This document shows positions 26,830-49,280 of a DNA stretch of 56,077 bases, piece by piece (within the stretch, counting starts at the first letter, position 1; each line of letters opens with the position of its first letter). The notes under the pieces were generated by a model. The model saw nothing but the letters and a program-made list of their open reading frames with translations. It was not told where the DNA came from and searched no databases. The translations under genes were made by a program, and so were the position numbers. Source of the stretch: Desulfuromonas sp. (GTDB taxonomy: Bacteria > Desulfobacterota > Desulfuromonadia > Desulfuromonadales > UBA2294); the NCBI GenBank assembly GCA_002869615.1, contig PKUH01000069.1, positions 1-56,077 of the forward strand, read 5' to 3'.

Positions 26830-27894
26830 CTAATCCCCCTTTCCTTTCTTCTTCACCGACATCGCCGTTTTGACCATTTTGCCAAACGCTTTATCCTTCC
26901 GCCGTTTTTCGACTAGCGTTTCACTCATCCGTTTCTGCTCAGCCTGCAGTTTGAGATAGTTTTCGACCCGGCGCGGATCGAGTTCTTCGTTTTCGAGCGC
27001 AGTTTCGATGGCACAGCCCTTCTCGCCTTCGTGCTGGCAATCACGGAATTTGCATAGCCGGGCGACCGCTTCGACCTCATCAAACACCTCGGCAATGCCT
27101 TCGACACATTCACTCAACTGCAGCTCACGCATCCCGGGGCTATCGAGAAGCAGGCCGCCATCGGGAAGAAAATGGAGTGAGCGCGACGTTGTCGTATGCC
27201 GGCCCCTGGCGTCGGCATCCCGGATCTCACCGGTTGCCTGGCGCTGTTCACCGCAAAGGGAATTGATGATCGTCGATTTACCGACGCCGGATGAACCGAC
27301 CAGGGCGACAGTTTGCCCGACACTACACCAGGTGCGCAGATTTTCCACCGAGTCATGATCGCGGGAATTGACCAGTTCGACAACGAGTCCGGGTCTCAGG
27401 GATTCAGCTTCCTGCCGGAAGGCATCAACCGAATCGATTAAATCAACTTTTGTTAAAACCAGCACCGGCTCAACACCGGCATCGAGAGCCAGCGCGAGAT
27501 AGCGCTCAAGTCTTGAAAGATTAAAGTCCCGGTTGCAAGAGGTCACAATAAACAGCGTATCGACATTGGCCGCCAGCAACTGAACCCTGGCGTCCCGACC
27601 GGACGCCATGCGCCGAAACAACGATTTTCTTTGCAGTAATGAAACAGGTTGATGCGTCTCCGACTCAATCAGCAACCAGTCACCAATTGTCGGCAGGTCC
27701 TCCGGCTCAAGATGCTTCCAGGTTCCCGGCAGAGAGACCTGATCGCGGCCATCTACTCCGATGATATCGATCAACTGTCCGTGGGTGGCGAATATACGGG
27801 CTGGTGAATAAAGTTCGAGTTCTTCGATGGAGAGCTGTTGCTGGAAAAAATGACTCCAGCCGAGTTCAGGTAATCCGTAAAGCGGTTCAGTCAT
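26830..27894 (-). CDS. rsgA: Ribosome small-subunit GTPase RsgA
   Basis: A 354-aa circularly permuted GTPase that helps mature the 30S subunit. An OB-fold N-terminus is followed by G4 (LTKVDL), then G1 (GSSGVGKSTIINSL), the RHTTTSRSL switch region and G3 (LLDSPGMREL). The C-terminal zinc knuckle is LCKFRDCQHEGEKGCAI. The lysine-rich tail VKTAMSVKKKGKGD is usual. The start overlaps the hypF stop (ATGA at 27894-27891), indicating coupling to hypF, an unusual partner for RsgA. Confidence 0.95.
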   Translation of the reverse strand: MTEPLYGLPELGWSHFFQQQLSIEELELYSPARIFATHGQLIDIIGVDGRDQVSLPGTWKHLEPEDLPTIGDWLLIESETHQPVSLLQRKSLFRRMASGRDARVQLLAANVDTLFIVTSCNRDFNLSRLERYLALALDAGVEPVLVLTKVDLIDSVDAFRQEAESLRPGLVVELVNSRDHDSVENLRTWCSVGQTVALVGSSGVGKSTIINSLCGEQRQATGEIRDADARGRHTTTSRSLHFLPDGGLLLDSPGMRELQLSECVEGIAEVFDEVEAVARLCKFRDCQHEGEKGCAIETALENEELDPRRVENYLKLQAEQKRMSETLVEKRRKDKAFGKMVKTAMSVKKKGKGD

Positions 27895-30167
27895 GAGTAT
27901 AATCCAACCTGGTGAGCGGCAATCACCGCCTGCCCCAGGGCCAGCCCGCCATCATTCGGCGGCACCCGGGAATGACTCAGTACGGTAAAGCCGTCATCCT
28001 GAAGTGACTGCACAACCTTCTCCGTCAGTAAAATGTTCTGGAACACGCCGCCGGAAAGTGCGACCGTTTCCAGGCCGGTGATATTCCAGATATGGCGCGT
28101 CGCCGAAAGCACGACATTGGTTATCGTATTATGAAAACGGCCGCCGATATCAGCGGTTGTTTCACCATTGAGCACATCATCAACGATCGCCGTGATCATT
28201 GCATCGTAGTCAAGGCAGAATCCGCCGGCGTCCTTGACCAGGTTGAAGGGGTAGCATCCGTCGGCCATCGGGTCGGAAACCTGTTCGAGCTCAAGAGCAG
28301 CCTGCCCTTCATAACTGACTTCGCCGCGCAAACCGACCAGTGCGGAAACGGCATCAAACAGACGACCACAACTCGAGGTCAATGGTGAGTTCAACCCTTT
28401 TTCAATCATCTGCTGAAACAGCTGCAATTCTTTTTTCGATATGGCCTTGACCAGCGGAAGATCGGGCAACTTGTCGCCATACACCCGGAACAGGTAACTC
28501 AAAGCCATCCGGTATGGTTCACGGACCGCTGAATCGCCGCCCGGCATTGCAATGTGGGAAAAATGACCCATCCGCTTGAAACTGCGATAACCGCCGACAA
28601 GAAACTCACCACCCCAGATCTTGCCGTCAATGCCAAGACCGAGACCGTCAAAAATGACGCCGATCGCGTCGCCATCAAAGCTATTTTCAGCAAGACAACT
28701 GGCGAGATGAGCATGGTGGTGCTGAACCGGCACCCGCTCGATTCCGGCTAGTTCCTCGGCGTATCGGGTCGAGTAAAAATCGGGATGGAGATCGTGGGCA
28801 ACCGCCACCGGTGTAACCTCGAGAATCTCTTCAAGATGACCGATCGAGCGGCAAAAAGATTCATAAACGTCAACGTTCTTCAGATCACCGATATGCTGGC
28901 CCAGATACGCCCTGTCGCCCCGGGTCAGACAAAACGTGTTTTTCAGTTCGGCGCCGGTCGCCAGAACCGGCGGCATCTTATCGCTTAAAGCCAGCGACCG
29001 CGGAACATACCCCCTGGAACGACGCAACATCATGGTCTTTCCCGAAACAATACGGACTATCGAGTCATCGGAGCGTGTCTGAATCCGCCGATTATGGGTC
29101 AGGAAACAATCGGCGATACCGGCAAGGCGGTTGCGGGCATCAATGTCTTCGAAAGCAATCGGTTCATCCGAAACATTGCCGCTGGTCATGACCAGGGCCC
29201 TGAACTGACCCTGAAGCAGCAGATAATGGAGTGGCGCATAAGGGAGCATCACCCCGAAATAATTGTTTCGGGGTGAAACACTTTCGCCAATGCCGCTGTT
29301 CTCTTTTTTCCGTAAAAGGACAATCGGCCGCTCGACACCGGCCAGCAGTTTCACTTCGTCCGGATCGGCAAGCGTATAGGTGAGAATCTCGTCGATAGAA
29401 CAGGACATCAACGCAAACGGTTTTTCATCGCGCTCTTTGCGTCTACGCAGCTCATCTATGGCCGCATTGTTTTCAGTATCGACGGCAAGATGGTACCCGC
29501 CAATCCCTTTAACGGCAACGATCTGTCCCTTTTTCAAGGCAGCGATTGCGGCGGCAACCGGATCTGCCGTTTCGATCTCACCGCCGGCAGCATCGAGCAG
29601 GCGCACCTGCGGACCGCACACCGGACAAGCATTCGGCTGAGCATGAAACCTCCGGGATTGCGGGTCATCGTATTCCTCCTGACAAGCCTGACACATCTTG
29701 AAATCGATCATGGTTGTCTGGGGACGATCATAAGGGATACCGGTGACAATGCTGTATCGGGGACCACAATTGGTGCAGTTGATGAAAGGGTAACGGTAGC
29801 GCCGGTCGGCAGAATCAAAAAGTTCGCTCAGGCAGTCGTCGCAAACAAAGGTGTCGGGAGATATTTGCGCTTCGGTGGAGCCGGGAGCATCGTCGCTCAC
29901 GAGAATGGCAAAGGACTGGTCTCCGGCCGCTGCAATGTCGGAAACGTCAAACCGCGAAATCGAAGCGAGCGGCGGGATATCGGACCGGACCGACCAGAGA
30001 AACCCGGCCAGCTTTTCAAAAGGGCCCTCCGCTTCGATGGTGACACCACGCCTGTTATTCAGAACAAACCCGGAAATCCCCCAATGTTGCGCCATCTTGT
30101 AAACAAAGGGCCGGAAACCGACCCCCTGGACGACACCTTCAATTTCGATCCGCTTGCGCAGAATCAT
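27891..30167 (-). CDS. hypF: Carbamoyltransferase HypF
   Basis: A 758-aa protein that makes the thiocarbamoyl group used for the cyanide ligands of [NiFe] hydrogenase. N-terminal acylphosphatase domain (GVVQGVGFRPFVYKMA), two zinc fingers (CDDCLSEL with CTNCGPRY; CQACQEEY with CPVCGP), a YrdC-like domain (AVKGIGGYHLAVD; KPFALM) and a Kae1-like carbamoyltransferase domain (VQHHHAHLASCLAEN; SGGVFQN). All expected parts are present at normal length. Other hyp genes are not nearby. Confidence 0.96.
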   Translation of the reverse strand: MILRKRIEIEGVVQGVGFRPFVYKMAQHWGISGFVLNNRRGVTIEAEGPFEKLAGFLWSVRSDIPPLASISRFDVSDIAAAGDQSFAILVSDDAPGSTEAQISPDTFVCDDCLSELFDSADRRYRYPFINCTNCGPRYSIVTGIPYDRPQTTMIDFKMCQACQEEYDDPQSRRFHAQPNACPVCGPQVRLLDAAGGEIETADPVAAAIAALKKGQIVAVKGIGGYHLAVDTENNAAIDELRRRKERDEKPFALMSCSIDEILTYTLADPDEVKLLAGVERPIVLLRKKENSGIGESVSPRNNYFGVMLPYAPLHYLLLQGQFRALVMTSGNVSDEPIAFEDIDARNRLAGIADCFLTHNRRIQTRSDDSIVRIVSGKTMMLRRSRGYVPRSLALSDKMPPVLATGAELKNTFCLTRGDRAYLGQHIGDLKNVDVYESFCRSIGHLEEILEVTPVAVAHDLHPDFYSTRYAEELAGIERVPVQHHHAHLASCLAENSFDGDAIGVIFDGLGLGIDGKIWGGEFLVGGYRSFKRMGHFSHIAMPGGDSAVREPYRMALSYLFRVYGDKLPDLPLVKAISKKELQLFQQMIEKGLNSPLTSSCGRLFDAVSALVGLRGEVSYEGQAALELEQVSDPMADGCYPFNLVKDAGGFCLDYDAMITAIVDDVLNGETTADIGGRFHNTITNVVLSATRHIWNITGLETVALSGGVFQNILLTEKVVQSLQDDGFTVLSHSRVPPNDGGLALGQAVIAAHQVGLYS

Positions 30168-30332
30168 ACATCTCTCCGAACAAAACAGGCTTTCAACGGT
30201 AACCAGAATTAATGAGGCATATTCTTACCATTGATCTTTAGCAGAATAAAGGATAAAGGGCACAGGATAGAGGTTCAAGCGGTTAATTTACCGGTGAAAT
30301 ATCGTGTTTTCAGCAGGTATTATGCCGGGAGA

Positions 30333-30419
30333 AAAAAACACCCCGTTCCGGAGGAGGGTGGAGGAACGGGGCAAAATCGACCCGGTCGGGGAACCGGGTC
30401 GGGCAATATGAGTTATGGC
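30333..30419 (-). ncRNA. Candidate sigma-54-dependent small RNA with C-rich loop
   Basis: From the start site predicted by the sigma-54 element, the transcript runs about 85 nt. It holds a 9-bp hairpin CGACCCGGT/ACCGGGTCG (30401-30378) and a terminator hairpin CCCCGTTCC/GGAACGGGG (30371-30341) followed by seven Ts. The terminator loop is UCCACCCUCCUCC, complementary to ribosome sites of the GGAGG type. It lies downstream of a histidine kinase/sigma-54 activator pair, past that operon's own terminator. The region 30168-30594 has no protein gene that I can support. Confidence 0.6.
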
Positions 30420-30429
30420 GCGATGATAG

Positions 30430-30446
30430 AGCAATCCCGGTGCCAA
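30430..30446 (-). promoter_or_regulatory. Sigma-54 (-24/-12) promoter
   Basis: Minus strand TTGGCACCGGGATTGCT matches TGGCAC-N5-TTGCW, with exactly ten bases between the GG and GC dinucleotides. A palindrome CGCCACCTGGCG about 130 bases upstream (near 30565) could be an activator site (weak). Confidence 0.75.
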
Positions 30447-30520: not shown

Positions 30521-30551
30521 GCAAAACAAAAGCGGCCGATTTCAGCCGCTT
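30521..30551 (-). terminator. Terminator of the sigma-54 regulator operon
   Basis: AAGCGGC and GCCGCTT around an 8-nt loop, followed on the minus strand by TTGTTTT. It lies 44 bp after the regulator stop codon and upstream of the sigma-54 promoter, so the small RNA is not read-through from the operon. Confidence 0.75.
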
Positions 30552-30594: not shown

Positions 30595-31974
30595 TTAATC
30601 CAATTCATACTTCTCGAGCTTGTAGCGTAATGTCCCACGCGGAACGTTGAGGATACGGGCTGTCTTGGCAACGTTTCCACCGGTTATCGCAATCGCCTTG
30701 GCAATCAGTTCCTTTTCGACCTCACCGATCATCTCTTCGAGCAAGATACCTTCAGGAGGTATGTCGAAACTGAACGGTGATTCCTTGCTCGGTTCGTCAC
30801 CCCATATTTCGTTAGGTAAAAATTCCGGCCGGATAACATCCTCACTCTGCATAATACAAATCCGCTCAACCATATTCCGCAATTCCCGGACATTGCCGGG
30901 CCATGAGTAGCGCAACAGAAGATCGAGGGCATCCCTGGAAACTTCATTGATTTTTTTATTGAATTCACGGTTGAACTTCTTGAGAAAATAATCGAGCAGA
31001 GGCGGGATATCTTCACGTCGATCTCGCAGAGGCGGGATGTGGATCGGGAAGACATTCAGACGGTAGTAAAGGTCTTCGCGAAAAGTCTTATCATCAATCG
31101 CGTCTTTCATATCACGATTGGTTGCCGCAATCACCCGGACATCGATATCGATATTCCGGGTTCCGCCGAGCCGGCGGATCTTCCGGTCTTCAAGAACCCG
31201 GAGCAGTTTGACCTGAAGGTTCAGATCCATTTCACCGATTTCATCAAGAAAGATCGTCCCGCCATTCGCTTCTTCAAACAGTCCGATCTTCCGGTTTTTG
31301 GCATCGGTAAAGGCACCCCGTTCATGACCGAACAGCTCCGATTCGAGCAGGTTGAACGGCAAGGAACCGCAATTGATTTCGATAAAGGGCTTATCTTTGC
31401 GCGGCGACATATTATGAACGGCCCTGGCGACCAGTTCCTTACCGGTGCCGCTCTCGCCGGTAATCAGAACGGTCGCCGATTCGTGTTTGGCAACCTCTCT
31501 GACCTGGCGATAGACCTGCAGCAGGGCCGGACTTGAACCAACCATCTCGGTATCACCGAGTAATGTCCGTTCCTTTGATTCACGCCGGAGATGCCGCAGC
31601 TCGCGGCGCAGGCTCTGGGTTTCAAGTGCCAGCTTGACAATCAGCCGAATGGCGTCGGCTTTGAACGGCTTCTTGATGTAGTCATAAGCACCCATCTTGA
31701 GTGCTTCGACCGCGCTCTCAACGGTGCCGTAACCGGTGATAATAATAACCAGCACATCGGGATCGACTTCACGCATTTCCCGGAGCACATCGAGGCCGCT
31801 CTTATCGCCGAGATTGAGGTCGAGCAAAACGAGGTCGACTTCCTCTTCAGCAACCTGGGCGATAGCTTGTTGTGGATTTTCGCTCGAATACGGGCGATAA
31901 CCGTCTTCGCTTAGAATCCGCTCAAGATTCTCACGAATGAAAGCCTCGTCATCAACAATCAGAATTTTTTCCAT
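30595..31974 (-). CDS. NtrC-family sigma-54 response regulator
   Basis: A 459-aa activator. Receiver domain 1-120 with phospho-Asp in LVLLDLNLGDKSG and the switch Lys in YIKKPF. AAA+ domain: Walker A GESGTGKE, sigma-54 contact loop GAFTDA (the common form is GAFTGA), Walker B GGTIFLDEIGEM and arginine-finger region FREDLYYRLNVFPI. A Fis-type HTH (GGNVAKTARILNVPRGTLRYKLEKYELD-like end) closes the protein. It follows its kinase gene by 162 bp in the same direction. Likely target: the sigma-54 promoter at 30430-30446. Confidence 0.95.
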   Translation of the reverse strand: MEKILIVDDEAFIRENLERILSEDGYRPYSSENPQQAIAQVAEEEVDLVLLDLNLGDKSGLDVLREMREVDPDVLVIIITGYGTVESAVEALKMGAYDYIKKPFKADAIRLIVKLALETQSLRRELRHLRRESKERTLLGDTEMVGSSPALLQVYRQVREVAKHESATVLITGESGTGKELVARAVHNMSPRKDKPFIEINCGSLPFNLLESELFGHERGAFTDAKNRKIGLFEEANGGTIFLDEIGEMDLNLQVKLLRVLEDRKIRRLGGTRNIDIDVRVIAATNRDMKDAIDDKTFREDLYYRLNVFPIHIPPLRDRREDIPPLLDYFLKKFNREFNKKINEVSRDALDLLLRYSWPGNVRELRNMVERICIMQSEDVIRPEFLPNEIWGDEPSKESPFSFDIPPEGILLEEMIGEVEKELIAKAIAITGGNVAKTARILNVPRGTLRYKLEKYELD

Positions 31975-32136: not shown

Positions 32137-34638
32137 TCAGCCGTAATCTGCGACAGGAAAGAACAGTATGAAACGGGTGCCTTGACCCGGATGGCTTACA
32201 ACCTCAATCCGCCCACCATGATCAGAAATAATATTATGGGTAATGGCAAGCCCGAGACCGGACCCCTCCCCTTTGGATGTGTAGAATGGTTCAAAAATAT
32301 CTTTCATAGCCTCCGGCGGGATGCCCTTGCCGGTATCGGAAAAAACGACCCTGACTCCTTCCGGTATTTTCCCGGCAGTGATTTCAAGGGTTCCACCGTC
32401 AGGCATCGCTTCGATCGCGTTGGTAATAAGATTCAGGAACGCCTGCTTCAGCTTATCCTTGTCGAGCGGAAATACGGGGAGATTTTTATCGATCCCGAGG
32501 TCGAGCTCAACCTTTGCCTTTCGGCACTGACTACCGACAAGAAACAGGGTATCTTCAAGAACCGCTGTGACCGACCCCGGCTTCAACTCGGCTTTCGGCA
32601 GAGCCGCAAAATGGAGGAGCTCATTGACCAGGCCTTCGAGGCGCTCGATCTCCTGCAACGCCCTGACGATGATCGCCTGATCATTTTCCCGCCCGATCAT
32701 CCGATCATGCAATTCATCGAGCATCAGATTGACCCCGGTCAGAGGATTGCGAATTTCATGAGCAATCGAGGCCGACAATCGGCCAAGAGAAGCAAGACGG
32801 TCGACCCGCTCCATCCGCCGCCGCATTTCGACCCGTTCCGTCAGATCCTCAATGGTCAAAAGCCGGTCAATCGACTCGCCGCCGAGAGGCAGAATGGCCA
32901 GACGGAACGTCATCTCTTTTTCACCCCGCTTGACTTCGACATACTGACTCCAGGCATCGGTCCCGGCAATTTCGAGTCCTGAGTTGAAAGCCTCGACAAA
33001 TTCGGGCCACAATGCCAGGGCGACGTCCAGAGGATTGGTACTGACTTCCGTCGGAACATCGAGGATTCTCGCTGCCGGCCCGTTCAGTGAAGTCAGAATC
33101 CCGTTTGAATCGAGGGTCAGAATGCCGGTTTCGACGTGCTCGAAGATTGCTTCCTTGAAATTCCGCTCCTGTATGATTTCGCGGCGCGAACGCCGCAGAT
33201 CCTGCAGCGACGTTAAAAGACGGGCCCGGCGTTCATTCAACTCGCGCGCCATAACGTTGAAGGATTTGGCAAGCTCGCCAACCTCGTCGCGAGACGACAC
33301 AACAACTTCACCAACCTGCCGTCCACGCGCCATTTTCTTGGTCCCTTCGATCAGATTCTGCAAAGGGCCGACAACCCCCCGGGAAAGTTCCATGGCAACC
33401 AGGAGAACCAGGAAGACAACCATGCCGATCATCACCATCGAGCTCCGGACAAACCCGGAAATCTCACGCCGTATCAGTTCGGATGTCTCGGTTGCGGCCT
33501 TATGAAACTGATTCACCTCGGCACCGATGGTTATCCCGCCAAAAACACCACTCAGCCTGTAGCTTCCGCTGTCATAGTAAATCGGCGCATACGCCATGAT
33601 TTTCTCGGAGCCGCCAACATTGGTAACATCAACGACCCCCGAACGCCCTTTGATAACCGCCTCGGCGACGTTTGGATAATTTTCATGGATAAAATCGGCA
33701 TAAAAAAGGTTGAACGGAATCAGCCCTGAATCGATCTGCTCCCGGGTCGATTTTTCGGTATAAGGGGGAACCAGCCGCCCCTCTTTGTCGAGGCCGCGAA
33801 TATCCCAGTACTTGGGATGGGTCAGCATCCAACCTTCGTCGTCAAACATGAATGCATAGTTGCCGCTGTCGTAGGAGGGAAAAACAACGTAGCTTTGTTC
33901 GGTCGGGGTAATATGCTGGGTAAACTCCATAAGATGGCGATGGTCGAGTGAAAGGACGACCATCCCCTGCAGCTCACCCGAATCACTGTAAACCGGCAGT
34001 ACAAAGCGGACAACGCCTTCGTACTTTGCTCCTTCAATCGCCGACTCCGGGTTTTCGGCTCCGGCAAGTTGCTGCAGTTTATTAACGTGCCAGCCGGTCA
34101 GATGCGAAACATAGACCTCTCCGGGCGGCAGATTCCTGGCTTGTTCAAAATAATCTTCAAAAAGATAGGTTGTATTCTCCGGCTTCGAAACATCACGCAA
34201 ATCTTGCGAGATTTCTCCATCGACAATCCTGACGAGCTCCTGTCCTGACGCATCGATATATGTCAATTCACGGTAGAGAGGAACTTCTTCACGGGTTTCA
34301 ACGGGATTCTCATTGTCCCCTCCGAGGTACCAGACCATGCGCTTATGTGCGTCGTGGAATTTTCGGTAATCAGAATTATTAACCGGCAGAAGAGCCAGCG
34401 CGCCAAGATCACTTTCGACTTCCCGGAGAAAGCCGGTAACCTCGTCGGCGACCATCCGCGCCCTTAATTCAAGCGATTTTGCGGCCTGGGTATCAAGGGC
34501 CCGGGTCGCATTTTCGCGCAAAAGTTTTTCGATTGTACGGAGGCTCTGGTCGGAATTTAACGACAACAGGACAAGCGGAACCAGCGACAGGGCCCAGAAA
34601 GCGAGAAGAACCTTCATGCGGAGAGAGAGGCGAATCAT
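32137..34638 (-). CDS. Sensor histidine kinase (dCache-HAMP-PAS-HisKA)
   Basis: An 833-aa membrane kinase. N-terminal helix [16 protein letters not shown], a periplasmic sensor of about 350 residues with Cache-like features ([33 protein letters not shown]), a second helix ([16 protein letters not shown]), HAMP, a PAS-like region ([20 protein letters not shown]), HisKA ([17 protein letters not shown]) and HATPase ([28 protein letters not shown]). Cognate kinase of the downstream response regulator by position. The signal is unknown; the domain binds small organic ligands in related kinases. Confidence 0.93.
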
Positions 34639-34702: not shown

Positions 34703-34939
34703 TCAACTGCGCTTGCGGCCGTCTACAAAAAGTTTCCGTGAATTGATTGCCAACGGCAGGAGGTTCCGGTGTTTTTCCAGGGCGGAATCGAGGGTCGGAC
34801 CGTCGTTAATGATCACATCGTCGTCAGCGAGAACTGTTTTGGCGACGTGCAGTCCGTCCGGTCTGCTATAGACCAGAACTTCGTATTCCTCTGCGCCGAC
34901 CGGAAGGATACACTTATGAACGAGTTCTTCTGTATTCAT
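34703..34939 (-). CDS. Small conserved hypothetical protein
   Basis: A 78-aa soluble protein: MNTEELVHKCILPVGAEEYE then VLVYSRPDGLHVAKTVLADD. Start at 34939 because GAGGTGGG lies just upstream; the earlier in-frame ATG at 34987 has none. No family recognised. It ends 64 bp before the kinase gene start and may lead that operon. The 240 bp upstream (to 35178) shows no other gene. Confidence 0.6.
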   Translation of the reverse strand: MNTEELVHKCILPVGAEEYEVLVYSRPDGLHVAKTVLADDDVIINDGPTLDSALEKHRNLLPLAINSRKLFVDGRKRS

Positions 34940-35178
34940 AGCCGCCCACCTCGAGTGATCGACCTGTGCCAAACGATGCTGCCGCACAGGAAATTTAACA
35001 ATAAATAAATCACGGACATTGTAGAAATAAGAGCAATTTCCCTGCCAATTGAAGCAGAAGGGGCGAAATGGGTAAAGACCTGAATAAATAATGGAAATTT
35101 CAGAGTGGCAAGAACAGTGTCAATGGCATAAAAGTCTTGAAATGACGGGAGCGGACAACGTCAATTAGCAAAATAACC

Positions 35179-49111: not shown

Positions 49112-49188
49112 AGTGAGCTTTGGCCTGGAAACAGTCCAAGGTTTTTGACCCCGTACGCACCCCCCCTCCGTGTACGGGGTCTTTTTAT
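49112..49188 (+). ncRNA. Candidate small RNA with C-rich terminator loop
   Basis: A promoter-like TTGCAT (49079) with a -10 at about 49100-49107 precedes two hairpins. The first pairs CTTTGG with CCAAGG, closed by a GAAA tetraloop (49118-49141). The second is a perfect 10-bp terminator, GACCCCGTAC/GTACGGGGTC (49147-49181), with five Ts and the loop GCACCCCCCCUCCGU. No gene ends just before it, because the cytochrome already has a terminator. The C-rich loop resembles that of the RNA at 30333-30419. Confidence 0.5.
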
Positions 49189-49280
49189 TTTCCTTTTTAT
49201 TTTCTTTTCCCCGAAGACATCAACCTTCGAATCTTGCTTCTTTCAGTGATGACTATGTTAAACTTGTATGCGAGGTCTGC

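Follow-up and report, generated by a model that had tools for sequence, protein, structure and literature searches.

In Vibrio, the NtrC-type regulator LuxO drives the sigma-54-dependent Qrr small RNAs, which base-pair with mRNAs. In the Pseudomonadaceae, the CbrAB-CrcZ/CrcY system combines a kinase, an NtrC-type activator, and a sigma-54-dependent small RNA encoded beside the regulator gene, and CrcZ sequesters Crc/Hfq (PMC8871633). The window in the present study, which is the whole stretch of 56,077 nucleotides that was analyzed, carries a similar circuit, with a kinase gene being followed on the minus strand by a regulator gene, a sigma-54 box, a two-hairpin unit, and hypF. The first-pass annotation had likened this order to CbrAB-CrcZ and LuxO-Qrr, which is appropriate for the circuit, but not for kinship: CrcZ and Qrr resemble it as analogues and are not relatives. 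Unlike CrcZ, the window RNA has no A-rich repeats, is approximately 88 nt in length with two hairpins, and usually forms a transporter 3'UTR; unlike Qrr, it has neither an Rfam match to such families nor a quorum-sensing context. Membership in CrcZ/CrcY was rejected because its 89 nt contain no AAYAAYAA Hfq/Crc repeats, and membership in RsmZ was rejected on features, with one GGA in the same 89 nt.

Regarding the loop of the RNA, the nearest Rfam family is the atoC RNA (RF01733), which consists of a hairpin and a terminator hairpin whose loop carries CCCUCCU (Weinberg 2010, PMC2864571) and has a phylogenetic range like that of the window RNA. The two also differ by an inner stem in hairpin 2, and Rfam files the atoC family as cis-regulatory. 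The window copy gave no match to this family at E<=5, and the transporter-3'UTR copies scored 33-38 bits against a cut-off of 50. The atoC copies examined were located either behind amtB or close to an Rrf2-type regulator and had sigma-70-like promoters, with gene names being read by eye from the sequence. Considering these scores and the differing context, the window RNA belongs to a separate, possibly sister, family, which is apparently undescribed and has no Rfam entry. Rfam gave no match in the window at the gathering threshold, and anti-hemB (RF02837), which reached 28.6 bits against a gathering cut-off of 49.5 in a relaxed Rfam search, was rejected. The earlier remark that no such RNA had been described at this locus in desulfuromonads agrees with the open-licence literature searched, in which no description of the RNA was found. 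An atoC-like RNA is also present in the window's own genome (G000:C105:11275-11365, minus strand, L132), at 42 bits, below the Rfam cut-off, and downstream of an amtB-like gene. Since the atoC copies have sigma-70-like promoters and terminators, they look like small RNAs, and the cis-regulatory label in Rfam may be wrong.

A comparable use of C-rich loops was reported for sX13 of Xanthomonas, which has three loops with 4C/5C motifs and represses, through its C-rich loops, mRNAs that have G-rich motifs near the start codon (PMC3771888). Stable C-rich-loop hairpins are common to sX13 and the window RNA, whereas sX13 is without known two-component/sigma-54 control, and no homology between them was found. 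The cuckoo/CcsR RNAs of Alphaproteobacteria have stable hairpins with the loop motif CUCCUCCC and a linked DUF1127 gene. The window loop CCCUCCUCC is similar; the locus is one of a regulator and transporter, and no DUF1127 family was found among the neighbors scanned. In E. coli, SdhX, which comes from a succinate-metabolism operon and represses ackA (acetate kinase), belongs with CpxQ to the 3'UTR-derived small RNAs (PMC9438474). The window RNA is likewise the conserved 3' end of an mRNA in most relatives; unlike CpxQ and SdhX, it also occurs here directly behind the promoter of that mRNA, the coding sequence being gone.

The two-component pair and the sigma-54 promoter

Pfam bore out the domains of the kinase/sigma-54-activator pair that had been proposed from the sequence. 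The sensor histidine kinase (32137-34638, minus strand) has an extracellular dCache domain followed by HAMP, HisKA, and HATPase, with its dCache_1 match being 43.9 bits, under the cut-off of 45, and the regulator (30595-31974, minus strand) is an NtrC-type response regulator and sigma-54 activator with the architecture REC-AAA-HTH8. Kinase orthologues, which are 46-61% identical, keep the gene order across the taxonomic order; of 136 genomes from this order, 91 have a regulator orthologue, and the window's genome encodes RpoN and Hfq. The standard order in relatives is a second kinase, polyprenyl synthetase, a protein of approximately 94 aa, the dCache kinase, the regulator, the sigma-54 box, a transporter, the hairpins, and often hypF. 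The transporter is a DASS-family symporter/dicarboxylate transporter (TIGR00785; PF00939), and in most relatives the hairpins directly follow its stop codon, which makes them the 3'UTR of its mRNA. A 94-aa protein is also encoded in the window (34703-34987, minus strand) between the genes for polyprenyl synthetase and the dCache kinase; it had no match in Pfam or NCBIfam, and its place is kept in many genomes of the order.

We consider that, with a probability of about 0.72, the locus encodes a trans-acting small RNA that stems from a transporter 3'UTR, is activated by the regulator at a sigma-54 promoter, and pairs with Shine-Dalgarno sequences via its C-rich loop. The full -24/-12 element that had been reported on the minus strand is a perfect consensus box, TGGCACCGGGATTGCT, at 30430-30445, and is unique in the window: the pattern TGGCACN5TTGCW has this single match in 56 kb on both strands, against an expectation of 0.13, and shuffled sequences had at least one match in 12 of 100 cases. 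Its position directly upstream of the RNA is a feature of the class of small RNAs activated by two-component systems and sigma-54.

Regulator sequence and downstream region were usable for 84 loci, comprising 27 with the transporter, 12 with the RNA alone, seven of family f18 with the RNA but without a sigma-54 box, and 38 with neither. The box was present in all 12 RNA-alone loci, which belong to five families, and in none of the 38 regulator loci without RNA and transporter (Fisher 8e-12, relatedness ignored), and this comparison supports the initial proposal of a sigma-54 small RNA beside the kinase/activator pair. When any cargo was counted, the regulator tree, which came from a quick search and has strong support on few branches, gave nine independent pairs on its starred branches, and all nine agreed (p 0.004); for the RNA alone, the three independent tree pairs all agreed, which is too few for significance. 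The first-pass annotation would have counted against itself a lack of promoter conservation at loci with the pair, and this is partly the case, as 38 pair loci are without the promoter, but those loci are also without a hairpin or transporter to drive. These 38 loci mean that the pair must have other roles or targets. Loci in which the pair is kept with no promoter, RNA, or transporter nearby include L218, L220, L247, and L276.

A 16-bp palindrome, TGGCYRAAATYRGCCA, precedes the sigma-54 box by approximately 100-240 nt and tracks the cargo as the box does. Conservation with the promoter suggests that it is the enhancer (UAS), and thus the predicted activator site that is characteristic of the class; the window copy, CGGCTGAAATCGGCCG at 30533-30548, agrees at 14 of 16 positions. 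Of the RNA-alone loci, 8 of 11 matched at 13 or more of the 16 positions, as did 19 of 27 with the transporter; among loci without cargo the figure was 2 of 42, and in f18 none of seven. These counts are descriptive because, f18 apart, the motif was derived from the very loci counted. In two f18 genomes outside this derivation, G041 and G051, relocated transporter genes have a sigma-54 box and, 120 nt upstream, the palindrome at 14/16 positions. An AT-rich element, TTATAACGATATTTTAAA, and a GTATAC motif were rejected as enhancer candidates because, although they occur upstream of transporter promoters, they are not common to the RNA-alone loci. The palindrome could serve to find other targets of the kinase/regulator pair.

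The window palindrome CGGCTGAAATCGGCCG sits inside the hairpin AAGCGGCTGAAATCGGCCGCTTTTG, which had been interpreted as the terminator of the regulator operon and, hence, as evidence for a separate transcript. T-runs, however, follow the palindrome in some genomes only and are absent in several relatives, and the hairpin is better read, probably, as the predicted enhancer site of the activator, which may double as a terminator. The assignment of a separate transcript consequently does not rest on that hairpin alone. In line with the conservation of promoter and hairpins that had been proposed as a check, the box, the hairpins, and the likely enhancer palindrome are kept together in the 12 transporter-less loci of five families.

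Fold and conserved loop of the RNA

The small RNA (30331-30419, minus strand) has a predicted length of approximately 85-89 nt, with its start near 30419 being taken from the sigma-54 spacing and its end from the U-run. The 89-nt unit begins approximately 12 nt after the box and folds at -37.3 kcal/mol (z = -5.4; none of 200 shuffles was as good), in agreement with the ~85-nt unit of two hairpins ending in seven Ts that had been noticed at this distance. Hairpin 1, GACCCGGTTCCCCGACCGGGTC, at 30379-30400, has a C-rich loop, and all seven of its pairs covary among 43 homologues. Hairpin 2, GCCCCGTTCC-loop-GGAACGGGGT, at 30340-30372, is the stem of an intrinsic terminator followed by seven Ts, and seven of its ten pairs changed on both sides, while three were invariant. 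In the alignment of the 43 homologues, 14 of 17 pairs thus change on both sides, and the covariation score was 0.538 against 0.175 for shuffled alignments (0/500). A covariance model, R1, built from 11 homologues with the window sequences excluded, gave the window unit a score of 62.3 bits (genome-wide E 2.7e-14), and blastn with 141 nt against 58 relatives recovered hairpin 2 from many of the order's families. Since only three of approximately 290 genomes sampled elsewhere in the phylum reached E 1e-6 with the RNA model, the RNA family is essentially confined to the order.

The terminator loop of the window, UCCACCCUCCUCC, contains an octamer at 30350-30357 (minus strand; CCTCCTCC in the window, consensus CCUCCUCC) that is complementary to GGAGGAGG Shine-Dalgarno sequences, as had been stated from the sequence alone, and is the probable seed. 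It is the best-conserved unpaired part of the RNA, at 1.5-2.0 bits per column, where the 5' half of this loop has 0.07-0.37, although homologue selection with the model favors the loop motif to some extent. A conserved C-rich seed that is left unpaired and can pair with GGAGG is a feature of anti-Shine-Dalgarno small RNAs.

Hairpin 2 has the form of a textbook terminator, and the whole unit may simply be one that was left from a lost transporter operon and stops read-through into hypF, with the promoter being a relic. Six transporter loci (G072, G031, G100, G049, G009, and G126), in which the 3'UTR terminator is kept but lacks CCTCC in its loop and resembles an ordinary one, are consistent with this explanation, and indicate that some lineages can do without the seed. 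However, terminator function alone is an insufficient explanation for an octamer that is nearly invariant beside covarying stems. The distribution of the box, which accompanies every transporter-less hairpin locus and no locus without hairpins, also argues against a relic, as does the composition of loops in general: the fetched regions hold 131 strong terminators, and CCTCC was found in 49 of their loops, nearly all of which belong to the RNA family or look-alikes, and GGAGG in none. We therefore regard a leftover terminator as unlikely.

Less likely still is the assignment of the sigma-54 promoter to hypF (27891-30167, minus strand; Pfam), with the hairpins as an attenuator in its 5'UTR. Hydrogenase maturation genes of E. 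coli are known to be under sigma-54 control, and hypF starts approximately 170 nt 3' of the hairpins on the same strand and adjoins them in many loci. It does not do so in all: a peptidase gene follows the hairpins in f18, hypF is approximately 7 kb away in G012, and there is no hypF in the fetched region of G095, G124, G083, and G075. Moreover, hairpin 2 with its long U-run has no visible anti-terminator, and the RNA is linked to the upstream regulator and the transporter, not to hypF, which is probably outside the RNA unit. Titration of a protein in place of base pairing, as by CrcZ on Hfq/Crc or RsmZ on CsrA, would suit a gene order that is that of CbrAB-CrcZ, but is very improbable with the single GGA and zero AAYAAYAA repeats noted above, and with a conserved element that is a C-rich loop able to pair with Shine-Dalgarno sequences.

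Origin, proposed action, and related units

The preferred reading, a base-pairing small RNA under the control of the pair, includes a descent from the 3'UTR of the DASS transporter, the coding sequence of which would have been lost here while the RNA was kept. The transporter-bearing relatives show this 3'UTR position; the window does not, as its promoter and hairpins have no coding sequence between them. In G021, two tandem transporters each have their own box and hairpins. The box is directly upstream of the hairpins, with no transporter at this place, in G000 and G001 (the window's genus), G043, G007, G095, G124, G083, G075, G045, G053, G006, and G120. No DASS transporter was found anywhere in the genomes of G000, G001, and G043 (G001 and G043 being 87% and 79% complete, respectively), and in G095 one is present elsewhere in the genome. 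The G001 contig with the box and hairpins ends before the regulator, an orthologue of which is on another contig. The RNA-alone state required seven changes on the best tree, three of which are forced by well-supported branches, and the 12 loci are not independent. Change counts cannot tell direction; loss of the transporter, rather than its gain, is suggested by the more widespread occurrence of the transporter arrangement. We lean slightly towards the view that an RNA born in a 3'UTR was repeatedly freed by the loss of the coding sequence, with the enhancer, sigma-54 promoter, and RNA being kept, such that the sensor pair then controls the RNA alone.

Among the f18 loci, L058, L064, L120-L123, and L127 have the RNA after the same pair. 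In these loci its promoter is sigma-70-like (TTGCTG-N17-TATAGT), and one more hairpin, GTTGCT...AGCAAC, lies on the 5' side. The relocated transporter in G041 and G051, which has its own sigma-54 box and palindrome, ends in a plain terminator.

Regarding the mode of action, we infer that the RNA is expressed when an external ligand, such as a C4-dicarboxylate or a similar compound, is sensed by the dCache kinase and the adjacent NtrC-type regulator becomes phosphorylated; a dicarboxylate-like ligand is proposed because the transporter is usually encoded next to the pair. The regulator, bound to the palindrome approximately 100 nt upstream, would then activate sigma-54 polymerase at TGGCACCGGGATTGCT, giving the two-hairpin RNA of approximately 88 nt that ends at its own terminator. 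The terminator loop CCUCCUCC, aided by the C-rich loop of hairpin 1, would pair with G-rich Shine-Dalgarno sequences and block the translation of a set of mRNAs. The retention of the RNA without the transporter suggests a function for the RNA itself, probably that of covering the ribosome-binding sites of other mRNAs.

The target prediction against GGAGG-type sites that had been proposed gave candidates only. The pattern GGAGGAGG-N3-10-ATG occurs at 13 sites in the genome, against two for the reversed pattern, including those of acetate kinase and a DRTGG/AAA_26 (Pta-like) protein. The ackA gene has GGAGGAGG in 7 of 14 genomes with the RNA and in 2 of 15 without it, a difference that is confounded by lineage, the signal being weak in family f8 with or without the RNA, and the Pta-like gene was rejected as a conserved target because its match is not conserved; accordingly, no target is claimed.

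Small RNAs from 3'UTRs are usually studied with their mRNA, which makes selection for the RNA itself hard to judge. The repeated switch at this locus between the 3'UTR of a transporter mRNA and a free RNA under the same promoter is unusual. The one promoter is present with transporter and RNA in some lineages, with the RNA alone in others, and absent where both are gone, and the question of whether the RNA is the selected product thereby becomes testable. If the present reading is true, the locus offers a natural test of the idea that what selection keeps in an operon can be its 3'UTR RNA. It also provides an RNA family that is not in Rfam, a probable binding site for an uncharacterized kinase/regulator pair, and a likely additional post-transcriptional layer in the dicarboxylate metabolism of desulfuromonads.

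Two further observations concern C-rich loops elsewhere. In the window, a second two-hairpin unit (49118-49189, plus strand) with the loop CACCCCCCCUCC scored 31.8 bits with model R1; it is located between genes for a c7-type cytochrome and a thioredoxin-domain protein, has a sigma-70-like promoter, occupies the same place in G001 (L356), and is probably another C-rich-loop small RNA. In L063 (G016), tandem terminator hairpins with CCTCC loops, at approximately 8738 and 9162 of the reverse complement, share one intergenic region and recall the cuckoo/CcsR arrays.
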